IMG/VR virus record: IMGVR_UViG_3300013126_000042
Span: 1 to 53,683 of that record
DNA length: 53,683 nt
From: a virus
Direction: 5' to 3' (one strand)
Below, one piece after another: positions 33,784-41,416 of the stretch (the stretch's first letter is position 1; each line of letters opens with the position of its first letter). The notes under the pieces are model-generated. The model was not told the DNA's origin, did not search any database, and saw only the letters and a list, made by a program, of their open reading frames with translations. Made by a program: the position numbers and the translations under genes.

Positions 33784-34749
33784 ATGCCATTTATCAGTTC
33801 AATAAGAAACAAAGTAAATCGAGAGCAGCCAATCGGCATTAAAAAAGAAGATCTTTTTGAAGTTACAGGAGGAGATCTAGTCTATACGGCTGGCGGATAT
33901 AAAATCCACGTGTTTACTACTGTTGGAGAGTCGGGACTTAATGTAAAGCTAAAAGATCAATATAAAAATAATGAATTAGCCTTGACAACAGCAGCCTCAG
34001 GTATGAATATAGAATACCTAGTAATTGCGGGCGGCGGCTCTGGTGGTAGTAGTAACTCGACCAACGGTAACGGCGGTGGCGGCGCTGGCGGTTATAGATC
34101 CGGCACACTTACATTGACCACTGGAACTACACCGACTAACGTAGGCGCAGGCGGCCCTCCAATCGGATCATATAGCAGTGGTAGCAATAACGGCGGCCCG
34201 TCTACTATGGGCTCAATTACTTCTACCGGTGGCGGAGGAGGTTCTAGTTATACCAGCGGTATCGCTGGACGACCTGGTGGCTCTGGTGGTGGGTCGGGAG
34301 CTGGTTATTCTGCTGGTTCAGGAACGCCCGGGCAAGGCACACCGGGAGCACCAGGAGGATTTTACTGGTCAGGAGCAGGTGGAGGCGGATCATCGACTCA
34401 GGGAGGAAGTCCGGGGCCTTTACACCAAGCAGGTTTTGGAACTTCTAGTTCCATAACAGGATCTGCAATCACTCGAGCAGGTGGGGGAGGAGGAGGAGGC
34501 AACTCTTCCGAAACAGGCGGCGACGGAGCTCACGGCGGTGGCCGCGGCCACGGCAGTTGTCCAAATTGGGGTTATAGTTATTACTCATATTCTCAAGATC
34601 CTCGAGGAGGATGGGGTGTAACACACGCTTACTCGGCTAATTTTGGATCTGGTGGCGGTGCAGGCAGCTATTGGTCGCCAAACATAGGTTGGAACGGTTC
34701 AGGCTACGGATCAAACGGTCTAGTAGTAGTTAGATACCCATTTACTTGA
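33784..34749 (+). CDS. glycine-rich tail adhesin, copy 1
   Basis: 321 aa. The N-terminal 80 residues include GGDLVYTAGGYKIHVFTTVG, shared with the 318-aa copy at 39710. From about residue 80 the protein is extremely Gly-rich with Ser/Thr/Pro (NGNGGGGAGGYRSGTLTLTT, then GGGGGSSYTSGIAGRPGGSG), ending in a hydrophobic strand GSNGLVVVRYPFT. Glycine-rich blocks separated by variable loops are the plan of receptor-binding adhesins such as gp38 of T-even phages, where the Gly blocks pack as polyglycine helices and loops contact the host. Receptor specificity is therefore the likely job; the receptor is unknown. Followed by one base and a small conserved protein gene. Confidence 0.8.
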   Translation: MPFISSIRNKVNREQPIGIKKEDLFEVTGGDLVYTAGGYKIHVFTTVGESGLNVKLKDQYKNNELALTTAASGMNIEYLVIAGGGSGGSSNSTNGNGGGGAGGYRSGTLTLTTGTTPTNVGAGGPPIGSYSSGSNNGGPSTMGSITSTGGGGGSSYTSGIAGRPGGSGGGSGAGYSAGSGTPGQGTPGAPGGFYWSGAGGGGSSTQGGSPGPLHQAGFGTSSSITGSAITRAGGGGGGGNSSETGGDGAHGGGRGHGSCPNWGYSYYSYSQDPRGGWGVTHAYSANFGSGGGAGSYWSPNIGWNGSGYGSNGLVVVRYPFT

Positions 34750-34750
34750 T

Positions 34751-35173
34751 ATGGCAATTTTTAAAACTACTTATAATATTTTTAAAACACCCTGGGAAGA
34801 AGAATTATTCAACGAAAATTGGATGGATAAAGATGTGCCCTATGCACCACCTACGGTAGACTGGGATTACGGTAGAGAGATGCGTATAGAAGATGTTGAA
34901 ATTTGGGAACAAATTTATTACGCGACCAGCGGGATAGGCCTTTATGCCGCATACTTACCCTATGCTGAATTTTATATGATCACCGGAGAATGGATTGTTC
35001 AAAGCCCTAGTAATGTAGAATGTTTTTACGGCCCGGGATCTATGGAAGCAGCCTACAAGCGAGCTAGAGAATTAGGAATGCCAATATCTCTGCAACCACA
35101 GTGGGTTGATAATCAAGATATGTGGTTGTTCAAAGAACCTAGACAAGACGACAGTAAAATAATTTTACCGTAA
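34751..35173 (+). CDS. small conserved protein paired with the adhesin, copy 1
   Basis: 140 aa. Pattern: MAIFKTTYNIFKTPWEEELF, then PPTVDWDYGREMRIEDVEIW, then GLYAAYLPYAEFYMITGEW, and an Ala/Lys-rich helix with YKRARELG. Two paralogues follow the second adhesin (136 aa at 40666, 116 aa at 41066). Constant association with the glycine-rich adhesin suggests a dedicated chaperone or adaptor, comparable in position only to adhesin accessory genes in T-even phages; this is inference. Its last bases overlap the end of the opposite-strand oxygenase operon. Confidence 0.68.
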   Translation: MAIFKTTYNIFKTPWEEELFNENWMDKDVPYAPPTVDWDYGREMRIEDVEIWEQIYYATSGIGLYAAYLPYAEFYMITGEWIVQSPSNVECFYGPGSMEAAYKRARELGMPISLQPQWVDNQDMWLFKEPRQDDSKIILP

Positions 35174-35680
35174 TTTTTTCCAATTGTAATAATTTAAATT
35201 TATTACGCATCTAACTTTTTGATCTGTGCAAGTAGTTCCGGCGTGTTTTAATCCTGAAGAAAACTGCAATAATCTATTTGCCTGAGAACTTATCTGCTGA
35301 TTATTTTCTAATAAAGTATACCCGTTGTTAGAATTTACATAAAAAACAGCAGTCTCACCGTCAAAATTTTCAAGGTCGTTGTGCATATCATAAACTATGA
35401 TATTTTTTGTTACTGGTTGCAGATTAGCTTTTATTCTTACTATAGCTGATGGATTAATGTAACTTAATAATTTATCTAGCAAATATATGTGATTACTTTG
35501 CACTTTATACTGATCATAAAAAGTGTGTGTGAATTGAAAATTATATAATTCTGGTACTGTTGAATTTGAAAATACTTTACTGTTATTTAAATACCAAGGA
35601 AAGTCAGCACTCAATAATGTTTTTTGAATTATATGGAATTCATCATCGTCTAAAACATTGTCTATAATTTTATAATTCAT
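35165..35680 (-). CDS. putative 2-oxoglutarate/Fe(II) oxygenase (171 aa)
   Basis: 171 aa, last gene of the seven-gene minus-strand operon, starting in an ATGA overlap with the previous stop. Candidate metal and cosubstrate residues of the double-stranded beta-helix fold are visible in order: H100-N-D102 in VYDMHNDLENFDGETAVFYV, then GYTLLENN strand, H146 in SSGLKHAGTT, and R157 in KVRCVINLNYY. This H-x-D...H...R series is the signature of the superfamily. Such enzymes hydroxylate or otherwise oxidise proteins, nucleic acids or small molecules using 2-oxoglutarate, O2 and Fe(II); the substrate here is unknown. It ends by overlapping the adhesin accessory gene on the other strand. Confidence 0.8.
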   Translation of the reverse strand: MNYKIIDNVLDDDEFHIIQKTLLSADFPWYLNNSKVFSNSTVPELYNFQFTHTFYDQYKVQSNHIYLLDKLLSYINPSAIVRIKANLQPVTKNIIVYDMHNDLENFDGETAVFYVNSNNGYTLLENNQQISSQANRLLQFSSGLKHAGTTCTDQKVRCVINLNYYNWKKLR

Positions 35681-36285
35681 TTAGCAGTATCAAATAAAAT
35701 ATTCCCTGACAGCGATATGCGAATATCGTCGCTTGAATAAAACGGGTAAACACAGTGTATTAGTTTACTGGGAAACATTATTAAATAACCTTCCCAAGAT
35801 TTATCAATGTATAAACGTTCAATCATAATGTTACCTAGTCCTGAGGTATAGGTAAATTCAAAACATCCACTGTAATTATTTGTTCCTTTTGAATGTTCTT
35901 GGTCTATATCAAAAGGAACTTGTATCCAAGAGGCATAGCTAATAAAGCCTTCGTGAAAATGATTCGGTATGAATTCATATTTTTTTTGTAAATTAAACCA
36001 AGGCTGGTTATAATGCAAGGGTACGTTATGTGTAAAATGATCAAAAGATTTTACATAACGAGGAAAAGCCCTTATAAATTCTGCAGTTATGCCCGCCACA
36101 AAAGATTTAAAGACTGCTAGATTATGATCTAACTTAATAGTTTTTGGTATTCCAACACCGTCGATAGAAGTTGGATGTATTTGATCACTGTCGAGCAAAG
36201 CTTCTTGCCGAAGCTTTGTTAAAAGATCAGATGGTATCTTACATTTTAAGAATCCAAAATTTTCAAATTGTATTAGTTCTATCAT
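35677..36285 (-). CDS. putative 2-oxoglutarate/Fe(II) oxygenase (202 aa)
   Basis: 202 aa, ATGA-coupled on both sides. It resembles the PF13759-type oxygenases: a W-F-N...H-x-H strand (PWFNLQKKYEFIPNHFHEGF, His109/His111), then SYASWIQVP, and near the end GYLIMFPSKLIHCVYPFYS with His177 and DDIRISLSGNI with Arg189. The H-x-H/E variant of the first metal motif is usual for this family. Substrate unknown. It belongs to the operon of six related folds between the two adhesin cassettes. Confidence 0.75.
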   Translation of the reverse strand: MIELIQFENFGFLKCKIPSDLLTKLRQEALLDSDQIHPTSIDGVGIPKTIKLDHNLAVFKSFVAGITAEFIRAFPRYVKSFDHFTHNVPLHYNQPWFNLQKKYEFIPNHFHEGFISYASWIQVPFDIDQEHSKGTNNYSGCFEFTYTSGLGNIMIERLYIDKSWEGYLIMFPSKLIHCVYPFYSSDDIRISLSGNILFDTAK

Positions 36286-36881
36286 GCGAATTCAAAATTA
36301 GCACTGATGCTGATTCGTTTATGCTCGCTGAGATTTTTCTCAACCATATGCGGCAAATTTGATCTAAAAATCAACAATAAATTCTCAACTGGCTCATAGG
36401 CACAGGTTTTCCAACTGGCTAGATTTTCATTTTTAGATTCTACAGGCAATGTATACATATCAGTCATTGCTTCTACGCTTCTAAATCTAATTTTTCCACA
36501 ATTTTCTGGAACATCAAGGTAGTAGCTAACACTAAAATGTGATCTAGTGTGCTGATGATATTCTTGATAAGCACCTGGTTCAGCTATATTGAACCAAAAA
36601 TCTTTGCAGTGTAAAAATTCTATTGGTAAAGTGATTCCGTAAACCCTACTAAATTCGTATACTTTAGACTTAAAAGTATCAACGATTTGATTCACTATCG
36701 GATCATTGTTATTTTTGTGATCAAAAAAACCTATAGTGTTGAAGGTATCGCAAGCCCATTTGGTTGTGGGCTTTTTATTTGAATTATTGTATATGTCTAA
36801 TGCAATATTTTTAAGATATTGATTATGTTCAAAATCTATACAATGATTATATATTAGGGTTGGAAACCAAGATTCTATCAT
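36282..36881 (-). CDS. putative 2-oxoglutarate/Fe(II) oxygenase (199 aa)
   Basis: 199 aa, beginning MIESWFPTLIYNHCIDFEHN, a start typical of PF13759-type phage oxygenases. Signature parts: DFWFNIAEPGAYQEYHQHTR (His109/His111) followed by SHFSVSYYLDVP, and near the end LLLIFRSNLPHMVEKN (His178) with EHKRISISANFEF (Arg189). The family pattern W.N....G..Q..H.H....S..YYL...P...H.V.....RiSis.N is complete. ATGA overlaps with both neighbours. Its C-terminal motif is very similar to that of the 202-aa gene, so the two may be old duplicates. Substrate unknown. Confidence 0.82.
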   Translation of the reverse strand: MIESWFPTLIYNHCIDFEHNQYLKNIALDIYNNSNKKPTTKWACDTFNTIGFFDHKNNNDPIVNQIVDTFKSKVYEFSRVYGITLPIEFLHCKDFWFNIAEPGAYQEYHQHTRSHFSVSYYLDVPENCGKIRFRSVEAMTDMYTLPVESKNENLASWKTCAYEPVENLLLIFRSNLPHMVEKNLSEHKRISISANFEFA

Positions 36882-37519
36882 TTTGTTTGTATAATATAAT
36901 TTTTATAGTCGGGCTGAGCAATTTTAGTTTTTGGTTCTTTCAACAGTCCAATAGATTCTCTCCTATCAAATTTAAAATCTGCATAAGGACCTTGTGCATT
37001 TACGTAATGTAAAAAAGCTTGTACCTGCCAGGTATATTGATCTACCTTAAATTCGTTTCGCCAATGTTGTAAATCACAGCCTCTATAGATAACCATATCT
37101 CCAGGATGTAATTTTACTTCAGCACCGCCCATATATATCGGCCAACAGTTTTCATTGTCGTAACTGTAGTTCAAACAGACAGTGGCAGAAATTTCGCAAC
37201 TGGGTCGATCAACGTGAGGTTCAAGATCGTCTCCGTCTCTATAAACTCTGTAATAGGAATATGTAGGATATAAAGATAACCCGGTATTTTCCTCCATCAA
37301 TGGATGCAGATGTAATAATAAAGATTCCATCGCTGGATCACCGTATTTAGAATGTGCTTCTGCAACCTGTGCTCCTTCCGGACCACTGAGTGTTTTTTCA
37401 GGAGTAAAATCTTGCATTTCATCAAACAATGCATATTGTGTAATGAAATCTCTCAATTCTTGAGATATAGCAGATCTTATAATTACATATCCGTGTTTAG
37501 AAAAATAATCTTTATTCAT
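36878..37519 (-). CDS. putative 2-oxoglutarate/Fe(II) oxygenase (213 aa)
   Basis: 213 aa from the ATG of MNKDYFSKHGYVIIRS; an earlier TTG start would need a 56-base overlap with the upstream gene, while this ATG overlaps its stop by 8 bases. Features: FSKHGYVIIRSAISQELRDF at the start, typical of this superfamily; YYRVYRDGDDLEPHVDRPSC with H102-V-D104; GGAEVKLHPGDMVIYRGCDL; and H152 in QHWRN. The usual distal Arg seems to be replaced by Gln165 in WQVQAFLHYV. The gene ends ATGA-coupled to the 199-aa oxygenase. Substrate unknown. Confidence 0.82.
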   Translation of the reverse strand: MNKDYFSKHGYVIIRSAISQELRDFITQYALFDEMQDFTPEKTLSGPEGAQVAEAHSKYGDPAMESLLLHLHPLMEENTGLSLYPTYSYYRVYRDGDDLEPHVDRPSCEISATVCLNYSYDNENCWPIYMGGAEVKLHPGDMVIYRGCDLQHWRNEFKVDQYTWQVQAFLHYVNAQGPYADFKFDRRESIGLLKEPKTKIAQPDYKNYIIQTK

Positions 37520-38309
37520 TAGAAACTCTCCCACTACTAAAGGGACATCCTTTATCTCGTTCTTCAATTTTTTGATGTAATTTTTTCTTTCTATTATAAA
37601 TCTGCGATGAATCGTAGCTAGTATCTCGCATAATCATTCTGTCTAATCCGAACAATCTAAAATAATCGTCTTTTGAAACCAAATGATGAACCAGTTTAAT
37701 TGGTCTTTCGGTAAGTGGATGCATTATTACCAATGGATTTAATGCTGGTATTGTACATTTTTGTCGATATGGCTTTTGTTCTACAAATAAATTTATTTCC
37801 GAAGCATGATTGTATTTGTAATTTACCACTGCAGGCAGTATAGAAATAGTGTTTTTATACTCGTTCATATTCCACAGAGGTTCAGTCCATGTAAAATATA
37901 TCTCTTCTTTGGTTCTAAGAGCCCACGGTGAAACCAATTTAATATTATGTCCGTGTTGACCCGAAAACCCATCAAACTGTCTTTGTACGTGAGAGTGACC
38001 GGTATCTAGATCAGAATTAGATGATCGCCATTCCCATTCGGGAAGTTCACCGATAGGAGCGATTGTTAACTCCATTTCAAACCACGAAGGAATCACTATA
38101 CCTCGTTTGTAGTAATCAATAAATCCGGTACAATGTTTAATTGTGGCACCTTTTGTAAGCTCAGGAAGCTGTCCGGGTGTTTTTTTCCACCACTCGGGTA
38201 CATATTTAGATGCTTGATCTATTTTAGCATAATCATAGGCATAATTCAAATGTGTAAAACATTCAACGACTATTTCTTTTTCTTTTATAAAGAAATTTTT
38301 AAAATTCAT
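37512..38309 (-). CDS. DUF6065-like protein in oxygenase operon
   Basis: 265 aa. Conserved-looking parts: ASKYVPEWWKKTPGQLPEL, KHCTGFIDYYKRGIVIPSWF, GHNIKLVSPWALRTKEEIYF, LPAVVNYKYNHASEINLFVE, CTIPALNPLVIMHPLTERPI. I recognise this arrangement (SKY.P.WF...P, then a C..F.D....G..IP segment, ending in a PL....F motif) as similar to the uncharacterised DUF6065 family, often seen beside oxygenases and in aquatic phages. No metal-binding H-x-D is evident, so it differs from its six neighbours. C-terminus: RDKGCPFSSG. ATGA overlap with the upstream gene. Function unknown; perhaps it acts with the oxygenases. Confidence 0.7.
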   Translation of the reverse strand: MNFKNFFIKEKEIVVECFTHLNYAYDYAKIDQASKYVPEWWKKTPGQLPELTKGATIKHCTGFIDYYKRGIVIPSWFEMELTIAPIGELPEWEWRSSNSDLDTGHSHVQRQFDGFSGQHGHNIKLVSPWALRTKEEIYFTWTEPLWNMNEYKNTISILPAVVNYKYNHASEINLFVEQKPYRQKCTIPALNPLVIMHPLTERPIKLVHHLVSKDDYFRLFGLDRMIMRDTSYDSSQIYNRKKKLHQKIEERDKGCPFSSGRVSNE

Positions 38310-38974
38310 AATAATACCTGTCTAGAAGCAGGAATAGGAAAATAATCAGAACTGATTTCATGTACAAAAAATACCTGAGTCAATCTTGGTTTTTGATCAT
38401 CGCCTATAAATCTAGGCACCCCATGATATTGAAAACCGTCATAGGCAACTAAACGATTATAGATATTCTTGAAATTAATAGTTTCTTCAAACAATTCGTT
38501 ATTTTCTTTTATTTTCTGCTGATAAAATTTTGATTTAGATGATTCAAAATTAAGATACATATCTTGTTTTTCGTTCATATTAATTGGACCGCTTGGACCA
38601 TTTTTAGATCTGTAAATGGATGTTCCGCAGTTCAAGCTCATATCCGGAGTCAAATAAATCACACCTGCGTAAGTTTTGTAATCTAAATGTACCCATCCTT
38701 CATTGATATCAGCATATTGATCTGGTTCCATTATTTGGAAATAGGTTTCTACAGAATATTTCAAATTATTTGTTTTTTTGAAATCAAATGTCAATGAAAA
38801 CAATTTATCACAAAAGTTTTTAAATATAAAACTGTCCAACATATCTAATGATCTGGTTCTTTTGCCAGGCCACGGAATTTGTGTAGTCGCTGAAAACTCT
38901 TGAGAAAGAGCAAATTCTCTTATTTTATTCGGTTCAGTATAAAAATTATCTACGCATATTGTAGGAAAATACAT
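38306..38974 (-). CDS. putative 2-oxoglutarate/Fe(II) oxygenase, DUF6445-like (222 aa)
   Basis: 222 aa. N-terminus MYFPTICVDNFYTEPNKIRE; a PWPGKRTRSL motif near residue 35 is typical of DUF6445-type proteins. Predicted active-site residues: H96-L-D98 in GWVHLDYKTYAGVIYLTP; GTSIYR strand; H184 in YDGFQYHGVPRF; R197 in KPRLTQVFFVHEI. The order and spacing fit the double-stranded beta-helix oxygenase fold. It starts one base after the first gene of the operon and is ATGA-coupled to the DUF6065-like gene. Substrate unknown. Confidence 0.82.
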   Translation of the reverse strand: MYFPTICVDNFYTEPNKIREFALSQEFSATTQIPWPGKRTRSLDMLDSFIFKNFCDKLFSLTFDFKKTNNLKYSVETYFQIMEPDQYADINEGWVHLDYKTYAGVIYLTPDMSLNCGTSIYRSKNGPSGPINMNEKQDMYLNFESSKSKFYQQKIKENNELFEETINFKNIYNRLVAYDGFQYHGVPRFIGDDQKPRLTQVFFVHEISSDYFPIPASRQVLL

Positions 38975-38975
38975 A

Positions 38976-39605
38976 TTACATTTGCCTATCTTTGATCCAA
39001 GTTACCATGGCATATTTTGTTCCTGATTTAACAGGATGTGCAATATGTTCATACGCATAATTAGAAGGAAATAATATTAACATTCCTGGCTGGGGATTTA
39101 ACATAAAATTAAAATTTGGAAATTCTAATTCGCCACCTTCGTAATCGCTGTTAAGATAACATATGGCCGAGATTGATCGTCCAATCGAAGTCCCTCCGTC
39201 ATAATGCGGTTTGTATTCCTCGCCAGTAGAATATTTTAACATATGGTAATGTTCATGAAACAACTGTTCTTTAATTCTAAATCTTCGAGAATAGGGATTA
39301 GAAGCAGCTAATAACAGCATATAAAATTGATTGTGTACATTTTGCAAAGCAGGATTGTTGGCAACGTAAGCTAGATGACTGACAGCCATTAGTTTATTTG
39401 TTCTATAATCTTGATAAGCACCGCTATCTATAGTTGCTGCTTGTTCCCAATATGCTCCCGAGCTAGGATTAGCTGCTTCGTTTTCTACTAATCTGATAGC
39501 TTCATCTGGATTAGGCCAAACATTTTCATAAATAGCGATACAGCCACCAATTACAGTGTTTGGTTCAAGCTCTCCTGGAAAAAATCCATTTACTTGCAGG
39601 GTCAT
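38976..39605 (-). CDS. putative prolyl-4-hydroxylase-type 2-oxoglutarate/Fe(II) oxygenase (209 aa)
   Basis: 209 aa, first gene of the minus-strand operon. The C-terminal half has the P4H-like core: YKPHYDGGTSIGRSISAICY with H134-Y-D136, LNSDYEGGELEFPNFN, PQPGMLILFPS, then EHIAHPVKSGTKYAMVTWI, where H187 is the distal ligand and K197 replaces the usual Arg in the GTRY motif. The N-terminal 100 residues have no clear motif. Relatives hydroxylate proline or other residues in peptides; the substrate here is unknown. A minus-strand TAAATA promoter and GAGGA site lie just upstream of the ATG. Confidence 0.85.
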   Translation of the reverse strand: MTLQVNGFFPGELEPNTVIGGCIAIYENVWPNPDEAIRLVENEAANPSSGAYWEQAATIDSGAYQDYRTNKLMAVSHLAYVANNPALQNVHNQFYMLLLAASNPYSRRFRIKEQLFHEHYHMLKYSTGEEYKPHYDGGTSIGRSISAICYLNSDYEGGELEFPNFNFMLNPQPGMLILFPSNYAYEHIAHPVKSGTKYAMVTWIKDRQM

Positions 39606-39626: not shown

Positions 39627-39634
39627 TATTTAAT
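39627..39634 (-). promoter_or_regulatory. candidate late promoter ATTAAATA for the oxygenase operon
   Basis: Minus-strand ATTAAATA 21 bases before the first oxygenase start; RNA would start near 39621 and carry the GAGGA ribosome site. The 104-base gap also holds a plus-strand promoter, so the region is a divergent promoter pair. Confidence 0.4.
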
Positions 39635-39709: not shown

Positions 39710-40666
39710 ATGCCTTTTGTTACCACTATTCGTAGAAATCATGCTAGAGAACAGCAACTCAAAATAGAACGTCCTCGTTTTGAATTAACTGGCGGTGATA
39801 AAGTTTATACCGCTGGCGGGTATAAAATCCATATGTTCACTTCTGTGGGCGAGTCTCAATTATTCTTAAAACAACTGCAAGATCCAAAATATCTACATTT
39901 GACAGGAGGCGCTGGTGGCGGAATGACGGTAGAATATCTTTGCGTTGCAGGTGGTGCCGCCGGTGGCGGTGAGCGTAATGACGGAGGATCTGGTGGTGGT
40001 GGTGGTGCAGGCGGTTACAGATCCGGTACCTTTACGTTAACCACAGGAACGACTCCTGTGCAAGTAGGCAGCGGTGGCACTGGTCACGCACCTAGCAGTT
40101 ACGGAGGACCAAGCAGCCCCGGCGGAAATGGCGGCAATTCAGCAGTAGGACCAATTACATCTACTGGTGGTGGTGGTGGCGGATTTTACACTACCAACGG
40201 AAATCCAGGAGGATCCGGTGGTGGCGGCGGAGTAAATACCAGCAGTAATACTCCGGGAACGCCCGGGGAAGGCAATCCAGGAGGCAACGGACAAAGCAGT
40301 AGTTCTAGTGGTCGCGGTGGCGGAGGTGGTGGCGCTGGTGGCGCTGGTAACCCTGGTCCCAGTTCTGGCGGTGCTGGTGGGCCTGGCACAACGTGGCCAG
40401 GAAATAGTCAAACTTACGGTGGCGGTGGCGGCGGCGGTGCTGGCCCTCGTATCGGTGCTGGTGGTCCTGGTGGTCCTGGAGGAGGAGCACCCGGAGCAGG
40501 ACCTGGCAGTCCATATAGTCCGAGAGCAGGTACTCCTGCACCTTTTTGGGCAGGAAATAACTTTGGAGGTGGCGGAGGCGGTACTTCCGGATCCGGAAAC
40601 TCTGGGCCAGGCCCTGCAGGTAACGGGTCCCCAGGTATAGTAATTGTGAGATATCCTTTCCCGTAA
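39710..40666 (+). CDS. glycine-rich tail adhesin, copy 2
   Basis: 318 aa, paralogue of the adhesin at 33784. Shared N-terminus (MPFVTTIRRNHAREQQ; GGDKVYTAGGYKIHMFTSVG; TVEYLCVAGGAAGGG) and shared end GIVIVRYPFP. The Gly-rich part (from about residue 82) holds GGGGGAGGYRSGTFTLTTGT, then long Gly/Pro/Ser runs that differ from copy 1. Constant ends plus variable Gly-rich loops are what is expected of receptor-binding adhesins. Strong AAGGGG ribosome site. Its stop overlaps the start of the paired small gene (TAATG). Confidence 0.8.
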   Translation: MPFVTTIRRNHAREQQLKIERPRFELTGGDKVYTAGGYKIHMFTSVGESQLFLKQLQDPKYLHLTGGAGGGMTVEYLCVAGGAAGGGERNDGGSGGGGGAGGYRSGTFTLTTGTTPVQVGSGGTGHAPSSYGGPSSPGGNGGNSAVGPITSTGGGGGGFYTTNGNPGGSGGGGGVNTSSNTPGTPGEGNPGGNGQSSSSSGRGGGGGGAGGAGNPGPSSGGAGGPGTTWPGNSQTYGGGGGGGAGPRIGAGGPGGPGGGAPGAGPGSPYSPRAGTPAPFWAGNNFGGGGGGTSGSGNSGPGPAGNGSPGIVIVRYPFP

Positions 40667-41076
40667 TGCCTTTATTCAAAACCACATATAACATTTTAGG
40701 TCCTAGAGATCAGGACGAATTATTTGACAGAAATCAATTAGATAGATCTACGCCCTGGCTTCCGCCTTCGGCAGATTGGGATTATGCTAGAGAAATGCGG
40801 ATTGAAGATGTAGATGTTTGGGAAATACTATACGAAGCAGGGCAAGGTATAGGTGTATATGCAGCCTATAGCCCATTTGCTGAATTCTATATGGTTACCA
40901 CGGGTTGGTTACCTTTATTACAAGGTCAACCATATAACGATAAAGTTATAGAAACCTATTACGGTGCAGGTGCACAAAATAAAGTTTATAAACGTGCTAA
41001 AGAATTAGGAATAGATCTCAGTCTTTATAAATCTTGGGTAGATGACGACGAGATGTGGTTATACAATGGTAGCTAA
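40666..41076 (+). CDS. small conserved protein paired with the adhesin, copy 2
   Basis: 136 aa, clear paralogue of the 140-aa protein at 34751: MPLFKTTYNILGPRDQDELF, then PPSADWDYAREMRIEDVDVW, GVYAAYSPFAEFYMVTTGW, and YKRAKELGIDLSLYKSW. The start overlaps the adhesin stop (TAATG), indicating translational coupling. The coupling with the glycine-rich adhesin in both cassettes suggests a dedicated folding or assembly partner, an inference. No catalytic motif. Confidence 0.7.
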   Translation: MPLFKTTYNILGPRDQDELFDRNQLDRSTPWLPPSADWDYAREMRIEDVDVWEILYEAGQGIGVYAAYSPFAEFYMVTTGWLPLLQGQPYNDKVIETYYGAGAQNKVYKRAKELGIDLSLYKSWVDDDEMWLYNGS

Positions 41077-41416
41077 ATTTATAAGAACTATTGATCTTAA
41101 AAATGACAGCTGGCAACTGAGGAACTACGATAAAAATTTTTTATCAGCACCGCCTTCAGAAGATTGGACCGGATCTTATCCACCTGATATTGATGATATA
41201 CAAATATGGGAAGAAATCTACTATGATCCTGGAGTTATAGGCGTATACGCAGCGTGGAATCCATTTTGTGAATTTTATATAATCGATCGTCCTTTTGTAA
41301 AAAATCAAGATAAGAGATTTTTAAAATTCTACGGTACTGAATCTTCAGAAAAAATACAGGAAATTGTTAAAAACTATAATATCGAAATTCCGGTTTTTAC
41401 AATGAAAGTAAATTAA
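41066..41416 (+). CDS. small conserved protein, third divergent copy of the adhesin partner
   Basis: 116 aa from the ATG of MVAKFIRTIDLKND, which overlaps the previous stop; an ATG eight codons earlier is less likely because the paralogues start at the same relative point. Shared pattern: PPSEDWTGSYPPDIDDIQIW, then EEIYYDPGVIGVYAAWNPF and CEFYII. More divergent than the 140- and 136-aa copies, and lacking the Tyr-Lys-Arg-Ala helix. Ends overlapping the opposite-strand 81-aa gene by four bases. Function unknown. Confidence 0.65.
   Translation: MVAKFIRTIDLKNDSWQLRNYDKNFLSAPPSEDWTGSYPPDIDDIQIWEEIYYDPGVIGVYAAWNPFCEFYIIDRPFVKNQDKRFLKFYGTESSEKIQEIVKNYNIEIPVFTMKVN

Follow-up and report, generated by a model that had tools for sequence, protein, structure and literature searches.

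The virus record IMGVR_UViG_3300013126_000042 of IMG/VR, which we analysed whole as a window of 53,683 bp and which is probably a fragment of a larger genome, carries seven minus-strand open reading frames (ORFs), g1 to g7, at 35165 to 39605. They lie between two cassettes that each encode a Gly-rich adhesin, and six of them are predicted to encode proteins of 2-oxoglutarate (2OG)/Fe(II) oxygenase fold (Table 1). We propose, with a probability of about 0.45, that these oxygenases oxidise the neighbouring Gly-rich adhesin late and post-translationally. The operon would then supply the late-expressed modification enzymes of the host-recognition module of the phage. Before or during virion assembly, its products would hydroxylate or oxidise side chains of the adhesins, as tail-fibre tips, and/or of their small partners. 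Each enzyme would be specific for one residue or site, and the chemistry of the adhesin surface would diversify as enzymes are gained and lost. That the adhesin is the substrate, and that host range is affected at all, is inferred. Adhesin modification is favoured because it explains the location, the timing element, the enzyme types and the missing scaffold gene together: the cluster contains tailoring enzymes and, among its genes, no scaffold-building enzyme. It also fits the resemblance of g1 to prolyl and lysyl hydroxylases and the annotation of some adhesins as "collagen-like". The alternatives, in falling order, are action on the host surface, action on cytosolic proteins or the 2OG pool, synthesis of a small molecule, and DNA modification.

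Table 1. Operon genes, promoter-like element and flanking genes in the window.
Feature	Position	Strand	Length (aa)	Assignment
g1	38976..39605	-	209	Putative 2OG/Fe(II) oxygenase, prolyl-4-hydroxylase-like, HxD...H...K; PF13640 E 3e-15; phrog_61
g2	38306..38974	-	222	DUF6445, 2OG-oxygenase-like; PF20043 E 9e-15; phrog_1644
g3	37512..38309	-	265	DUF6065-like, dUTPase-like fold (predicted); phrog_7084 E 3e-13
g4	36878..37567	-	229	2OG-oxygenase-fold protein (predicted); phrog_2954 only
g5	36282..36881	-	199	Putative oxygenase, PF13759 (2OG-FeII_Oxy_5) E 7e-19, HxH...H...R; phrog_81
g6	35677..36285	-	202	Putative oxygenase, PF13759 (2OG-FeII_Oxy_5) E 4e-9; phrog_81
g7	35165..35680	-	171	Putative 2OG oxygenase, HxD...H...R; phrog_274 E 4e-46; PF13640 below cut-off
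TAAATA	39627..39632	-		Late-promoter-like element 27 nt ahead of g1; relatives also have it upstream of g1
ad1	33784..34749	+		Gly-rich adhesin, PF21722 E 2e-9, 38.3 bits (cut-off 24.3); 28% Gly
pa1	34751..35173	+		Small partner of ad1; tail-to-tail overlap with g7 end; kept beside ad1 in relatives
ad2	39710..40666	+		Gly-rich adhesin, PF21722 E 2e-16, 61.4 bits (cut-off 24.3); divergent from g1
pa2	40666..41076	+		Partner of ad2; overlaps ad2 end; conserved in relatives
pa3	41042..41416	+		Third member of partner family; conserved, even in relatives missing ad2/pa2

A conserved but modular operon

An earlier note on this DNA, made from its letters, described seven coupled minus-strand genes between two adhesin cassettes, and the ORFs and their junctions bear this out. 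Transcription would run from 39605 towards 35165. Genes g1 and g2 are 1 nt apart, and 4-nt ATGA overlaps join g2/g3, g4/g5, g5/g6 and g6/g7. The g3/g4 overlap is 56 nt with the TTG start of g4 and about 8 nt with an ATG at 37519, which is the likelier start and is also found in the relative L002. Both flanking adhesin genes match PF21722 above its cut-off. The earlier note placed the DUF6065-like gene seventh; it is in fact the third, g3.

This arrangement is not chance, because other IMG/VR contigs have all seven genes in this order together with both flanks, and the set is under purifying selection. The search for the ordered set that the earlier note had suggested recovered it complete in 3300032322_001962 and 3300033571_014378, at 63-86% identity; a third contig, 3300047481_001175 (97%), ends within g2. 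Against L002, pN/pS is 0.11-0.31 with pS saturated. The gene set is conserved yet modular, since other relatives have g1-g5 with one adhesin, five-gene versions, insertions or reshuffled orders. A megablast search of the region against phages gave no match. Among the relatives, L012 (9239-9964) and L013 carry an extra ORF of 242 aa between g3 and g4, and L107, L111 and L114 have a second oxygenase cluster (g5, g5, g3, g7, g5-like) some 5-10 kb from the g1 operon. This second cluster lies beyond a tail-fibre gene and was not seen at the matching place in the window.

Six divergent oxygenase-fold proteins

The earlier note assigned a metal triad plus a basic residue to each of six proteins. The triads are indeed near-invariant or invariant in relatives; for g4 the numbering and the last residue needed correction. 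In g1, H134, D136 and H187 are kept in 38, 37 and 38 of 38 relatives, and the last position, K197, is Arg or Lys in all. The g2 set H96/D98/H184/R197 is invariant in its family alignment (23/23), and H100/D102/H146/R157 of g7 is found in 70 of 71 relatives. In g4, numbered from the long start, H118, D120, H168, R170 and Q183 are invariant in 24/24 relatives. The residues H102/D104/H152 named earlier are the same His-Asp-His, counted from the ATG at 37519; the accompanying Q165 is not conserved, and the invariant Gln lies two residues on, at Q183. For g5, H109, H111 and H178 are each present in 61/61 aligned relatives. The g6 set H109/H111/H177/R189 is present in 23/23.

The family alignments thus contain an HxD...H triad in g1, g2, g4 and g7, while g5 and g6 have HxH...H throughout their aligned relatives. 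By sequence, g5 and g6 are members of the oxygenase-fold family PF13759 and do not have canonical 2-His-1-carboxylate sites; g5 is similar to solved structures of that family (2rg4, E 6e-8; 3bvc, E 1e-6). The basic residue that would bind the 2OG C5-carboxylate is Arg or Lys in g1, Arg in g2, g6 and g7, and mostly Arg in g5. At the usual site of this 2OG-anchoring Arg/Lys, g4 has the invariant Gln183, and Arg107, Arg121 and Arg170 are invariant elsewhere in the protein. Use of 2OG is putative in all six proteins, above all in g4, with its Gln, and in g5 and g6, with HxH; all six are presumed to be catalytically active.

The earlier note proposed a check of fold and triad; all six can be assigned to an oxygenase fold or family, with a structure model among the evidence for g4. 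Support for the double-stranded beta-helix fold comes from AlphaFold2 (AF2) and Foldseek for g4, from Pfam for g1, g5 and g6, and from profile comparison for g2 and g7. The g4 model (pLDDT 81) has as its top Foldseek matches the Pseudomonas putida prolyl 4-hydroxylase (P4H; E 5e-10) and PHD2. The likeness of g1 is in sequence: its phmmer matches are bacterial prolyl 4-hydroxylases (2e-8), and also lysyl hydroxylase LH3. Through the sequence of g1 and the fold of g4, the closest known enzymes are thus bacterial prolyl 4-hydroxylases, such as P. putida PPHD and Bacillus anthracis P4H, and collagen hydroxylases of the LH3/Mimivirus type; the invariant Gln sets g4 apart from them.

The six are distinct, and recent duplication is rejected, in agreement with the earlier note. 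Only g5 and g6 pair up, as old paralogues (hhalign 100%, E 1e-41); the other members are related only distantly. The g1 profile joins g5, g6 and g7 at 95-97% (95% for g7) and g4 at 70%, and g2 matches g1 at 90% (E 1.5e-6, enlarged alignment).

The fold of g4 also bears on whether the enzymes might have host or phage proteins of the cytosol as substrates, such as translation factors or ribosomal proteins, or mainly drain 2OG and so tune nitrogen signalling. In fold, g4 is nearest to the P. putida prolyl hydroxylase that binds EF-Tu, and bacterial chromosomes carry homologues of g4 as single genes. Moreover, numerous 2OG oxygenases were reported in 14/16 cyanomyoviruses by Sullivan et al. 2010 (PMC3037559), who proposed 2OG drawdown and modulation of nitrogen signalling through NtcA. 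However, six divergent enzymes would be superfluous for drawdown, and neither version predicts a late-type promoter element or linkage to adhesins. The NtcA argument applies to cyanobacteria only, and the window falls in no known cyanophage lineage. We regard this explanation as improbable.

A late-promoter-like element

The earlier note had the operon read from one TAAATA promoter, a claim that gains statistical support from the sequences that precede the window's genes. TAAATA is the top hexamer in the 60 nt before starts (12 of 44, against 3.9 expected; 0/1000 shuffles), and the operon shares the element with structural genes. Late expression of the operon is likely, because TAAATA resembles the core of T4-type late promoters. 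The relative L100 carries TATAAATA upstream of g1. That exact T4 late promoter, TATAAATA, was considered for the window and is not enriched there; only the TAAATA core is. Scans of the window for sigma-70-like promoters returned chance levels. A further sequence upstream of g1, CAATATTTA, is conserved in close relatives and shared by no other genes. TAAATA is a candidate late promoter core for this group of jumbo phages.

Oxygenase runs and Gly-rich adhesins in other phages

The earlier note singled out a run of six oxygenases as what stands out. It is not exceptional, because runs of 5-9 are annotated in public phages, several of them longer than six (S-CREM1, S-SM1, S-RSM4, syn9), and S-SCSM1 has 24 2OG oxygenase genes (PMC9602691). 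The annotated runs lie at 72-80 in S-CREM1 (eight oxygenases plus JmjC), gp45-54 in syn9, 051-061 in S-SM1, 132-142 in S-RSM4 and gp68-72 in HTVC008M, with another in Mosig. PHD-like phage proteins are also widespread according to Phold (PMC12774648). The clusters of T4-like cyanophages and pelagiphages resemble that of the window in their tandem, divergent oxygenases of PHROG families 81, 274, 2954, 61 and 1644. In many cases a Gly-rich adhesin adjoins them, a pairing that recurs in cyanophages, SAR11 phages and uncultured relatives; those of S-CREM1 and syn9 also lie next to halogenases and a g3 homologue. The window differs in its jumbo-phage capsid, the opposite strand of its operon, its two adhesin cassettes and its lack of a halogenase.

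Linkage to adhesins was compared in three samples, which share families and phage lineages, so that the p-values are indicative. Among 32 non-redundant IMG/VR loci fetched with g7, a Gly-rich ORF was present in 11/13 with at least four ORFs of the g1-g7 families and in 2/19 with fewer (10/12 against 2/12 for pieces of at least 8 kb, p=0.003; gene-order permutation p=0.02). Among 72 non-redundant GTDB contigs fetched with g4, a Gly-rich adhesin was found with 9/15 runs of at least three oxygenases and in 5/57 of the others (p=7e-5); several of the positives resemble phage contigs binned into metagenome-assembled genomes or single-cell genomes. PF21722 is present in nine of 15 cyanomyovirus genomes, and in six of these nine a run lies no more than 5 kb away from it (combined p=0.005). 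The window itself has at least three divergent tandem oxygenases with a Gly-rich adhesin within a few kb.

Operon structure outweighs these statistics as evidence for the link. In S-SM1 and S-RSM4, a tail fibre gene, a Gly-rich gene, a partner gene and the oxygenase run are co-directional, with gaps of 6-25 nt from the Gly-rich gene onward, and in L035 and L037 the Gly-rich gene sits between two oxygenase genes, overlapping them or a few nt away. In S-CREM1 the order is "collagen-like protein", halogenase, g3-like gene and then the eight oxygenases plus JmjC, and syn9 shares with it the order Gly-rich gene, halogenase(s), g3 homologue, oxygenases. The connection between cluster and adhesins that the earlier note drew from the window is thereby strengthened.

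Several observations weigh against the adhesin as target. Runs without a detectable PF21722 gene occur in S-SM2, S-PM2 and Syn1, the pattern is absent or only loose in Syn33, S-SSM7 and P-SSM2, and many oxygenases are scattered outside runs. The operon and the adhesins of the window occupy opposite strands, and the adhesin sequence does not follow a strict collagen (GXY) repeat. To our knowledge, the adhesins gp38 of enteric T4-like phages are also Gly-rich and need no hydroxylation. Because the host-recognition region is a hot spot in general, genes may lie together there without acting on the adhesin. Moreover, all of the support is genomic association, and kinship among the phages means that the samples are not independent. 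Among the papers searched we found none tying oxygenases to Gly-rich adhesins. The nearest precedent is a table of marine phage islands in which Fe(II) oxygenases and gp38 adhesins both appear among the host-recognition genes; it offers no mechanism (PMC3909814).

The same location could arise through receptor competition if the cluster modified host-surface molecules (lipopolysaccharide [LPS], capsule, an outer-membrane protein or a lipid), for example to block superinfection. In pelagimyophages this same region contains LPS glycosyltransferases, and a role in changing the host surface has been proposed for it (PMC7029224); S-SCSM2R has oxygenases among glycosyltransferases and sugar enzymes. 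Clusters in relatives hold carbamoyl- and sulfotransferases. Such enzymes often act on glycans. Still, no glycosyltransferase or sugar-nucleotide gene was found among the scanned window genes, and both the promoter-like element and the structure of the operons connect the runs with adhesin genes, not with LPS genes. On balance we consider a host-surface target unlikely.

Halogenases and other tailoring enzymes

Flavin tryptophan halogenases of PF04820 are present in the clusters of the relatives L015, L059, L102, L103 and L117-L120, and halogenases are also annotated in syn9 and HTVC008M; a halogenase in L069 was recognised by motif. Carbamoyltransferases occur in the clusters of L069, L102 and L103, and a sulfotransferase in L069. 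The cluster of L069, beside a Gly-rich adhesin, has the richest tailoring set seen, as it adds a weak radical-SAM match to its halogenase, carbamoyltransferase and sulfotransferase. VirX1 of phage Syn10 (6QGM) is an iodinating flavin halogenase of 531 aa; syn9 gp42, just upstream of the syn9 oxygenase run, is close in length (530 aa) and probably corresponds to it. The active site of VirX1 is wide and open and its small-molecule scope broad; the review that describes the enzyme gives no biosynthetic context (PMC8407142).

The repertoire, in which relatives add halogenases, carbamoyl- and sulfotransferases to the oxygenases, is like that of natural-product tailoring sets and, with the broad scope of VirX1, could suggest a pathway that builds or alters a diffusible metabolite. 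We think this quite improbable: no scaffold synthase, carrier protein or transporter was found among the scanned window genes, and the persistent linkage to adhesins would be left unexplained.

g3, a probable dUTPase-like accessory

Gene g3 does not encode an oxygenase; its model resembles dUTPases, and we take it for a putative, catalytically altered accessory of that fold. It has no Pfam match, hence no PF19541 (DUF6065) above the cut-off, and PF19541 gives a weak match in 1/14 of its relatives (E 0.007). In the AF2 model (pLDDT 77), all top 50 listed PDB matches are dUTPases or dCTP deaminases, with marginal scores (best E 9e-4, TM 0.2-0.6), and the profile matches Wsv112 weakly. The predicted fold resembles that of trimeric dUTPases, at low TM-scores, and the catalytic Asp of motif III is replaced by Asn ("VNYKYNH"); the syn9 homologue keeps the Asp ("ILDPKYG"), and the homologue beside the S-CREM1 run is annotated "triphosphate nucleotidohydrolase". 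dUTPase activity of g3 is unlikely. In tblastn against phages, g3 and pa1 gave no match at E 1e-5; PHROG and profiles supplied the distant homologues.

With g3 as a nucleotide-handling relative of dUTPases, the oxygenases might be imagined to modify DNA or nucleotides by TET/JBP-like oxidation. The g4 family matches a Tet-like dioxygenase (E 0.07) and g1 matches Tet_JBP (E 0.11), neither significantly. The catalytic Asp is missing from g3, the scanned window genes include no hypermodification gene, and the operon lies in the tail region. This idea is very hard to sustain.

PHROG labels in doubt

The phrog_2954 label would make g4 a ferrochelatase. Since its model resembles prolyl 4-hydroxylase and PHD2, the label is wrong; the PDB matches listed for the model are 2OG oxygenases, with no chelatase fold among them. 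The labels "DNA endonuclease V" for phrog_274 (g7) and "minor coat protein" for phrog_1644 (g2) are doubtful. All three sit on families with conserved oxygenase triads and have propagated into RefSeq phage records (for example, NC_015282 SSM1_060/061 and NC_006883 PSSM2_324/327). Pelagiphage "ferrochelatases" always adjoin a 2OG oxygenase (PMC9599517). Judged by the g4 model, they are themselves oxygenase-fold proteins, and the published heme/iron argument for pelagiphages rests on the ferrochelatase label (PMC9599517). Three widespread labels thus appear to hide oxygenase families.

Phage lineage, flanking genes and distant homologues

The major capsid protein of the window is 67-73% identical to those of jumbo T4-like phages (the Sinorhizobium phage Phosso, Vibrio 2.275.O, the Xanthomonas phage XaC1, PA5oct and GAP32) and points to a T4-like jumbo phage. 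A contig with a five-gene version is 281.7 kb long. Cyanophage or pelagiphage origin was rejected on this capsid and on the lack of psbA in nine related records, with contigs up to 282 kb. The isolates that carry the g2 and g4 families are cyanophages and pelagiphages, so the cassette spans distant lineages.

Adhesin ad2 has 34% Gly with GPG and GxPG motifs. The partner family pa1-pa3 matches no Pfam or PHROG family, and pa1 had no match in the phage collection either. Chromosomal, single-copy g4 homologues (38-45% identity) occur in Lysobacter, Legionella, Acidobacteria and others (GTDB contigs such as L125-L128, L141, L148 and L170), with neighbours that give no clear clue to function. Domains like g4 also lie inside ORFs of 650-713 aa (L014:5446-7587; L120, 653 aa), possibly as fusions with a second domain, as phrog_3531 also suggests.

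Discussion

What is new here is the reading of such clusters as adhesin-linked tailoring islands, of which we found no description in the papers searched; the jumbo-phage locus, with two adhesins and its operon on the opposite strand, is a variant of known clusters. Tentatively, and with considerable doubt, we extend the proposal of adhesin modification to other phages: several unrelated lineages of aquatic phages may carry modular islands of interchangeable oxygenases, flavin halogenases, carbamoyl- and sulfotransferases that tailor a Gly-rich tail-fibre adhesin. Equally tentative is the idea that receptor specificity depends on sequence and also on the post-translational chemistry that such islands supply. 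If true, this would give orphan phage halogenases a natural substrate and would supply a reason for the many 2OG oxygenases of phages. The recurrent, operon-level tie to one protein makes the substrates of these oxygenases and halogenases testable by mass spectrometry.

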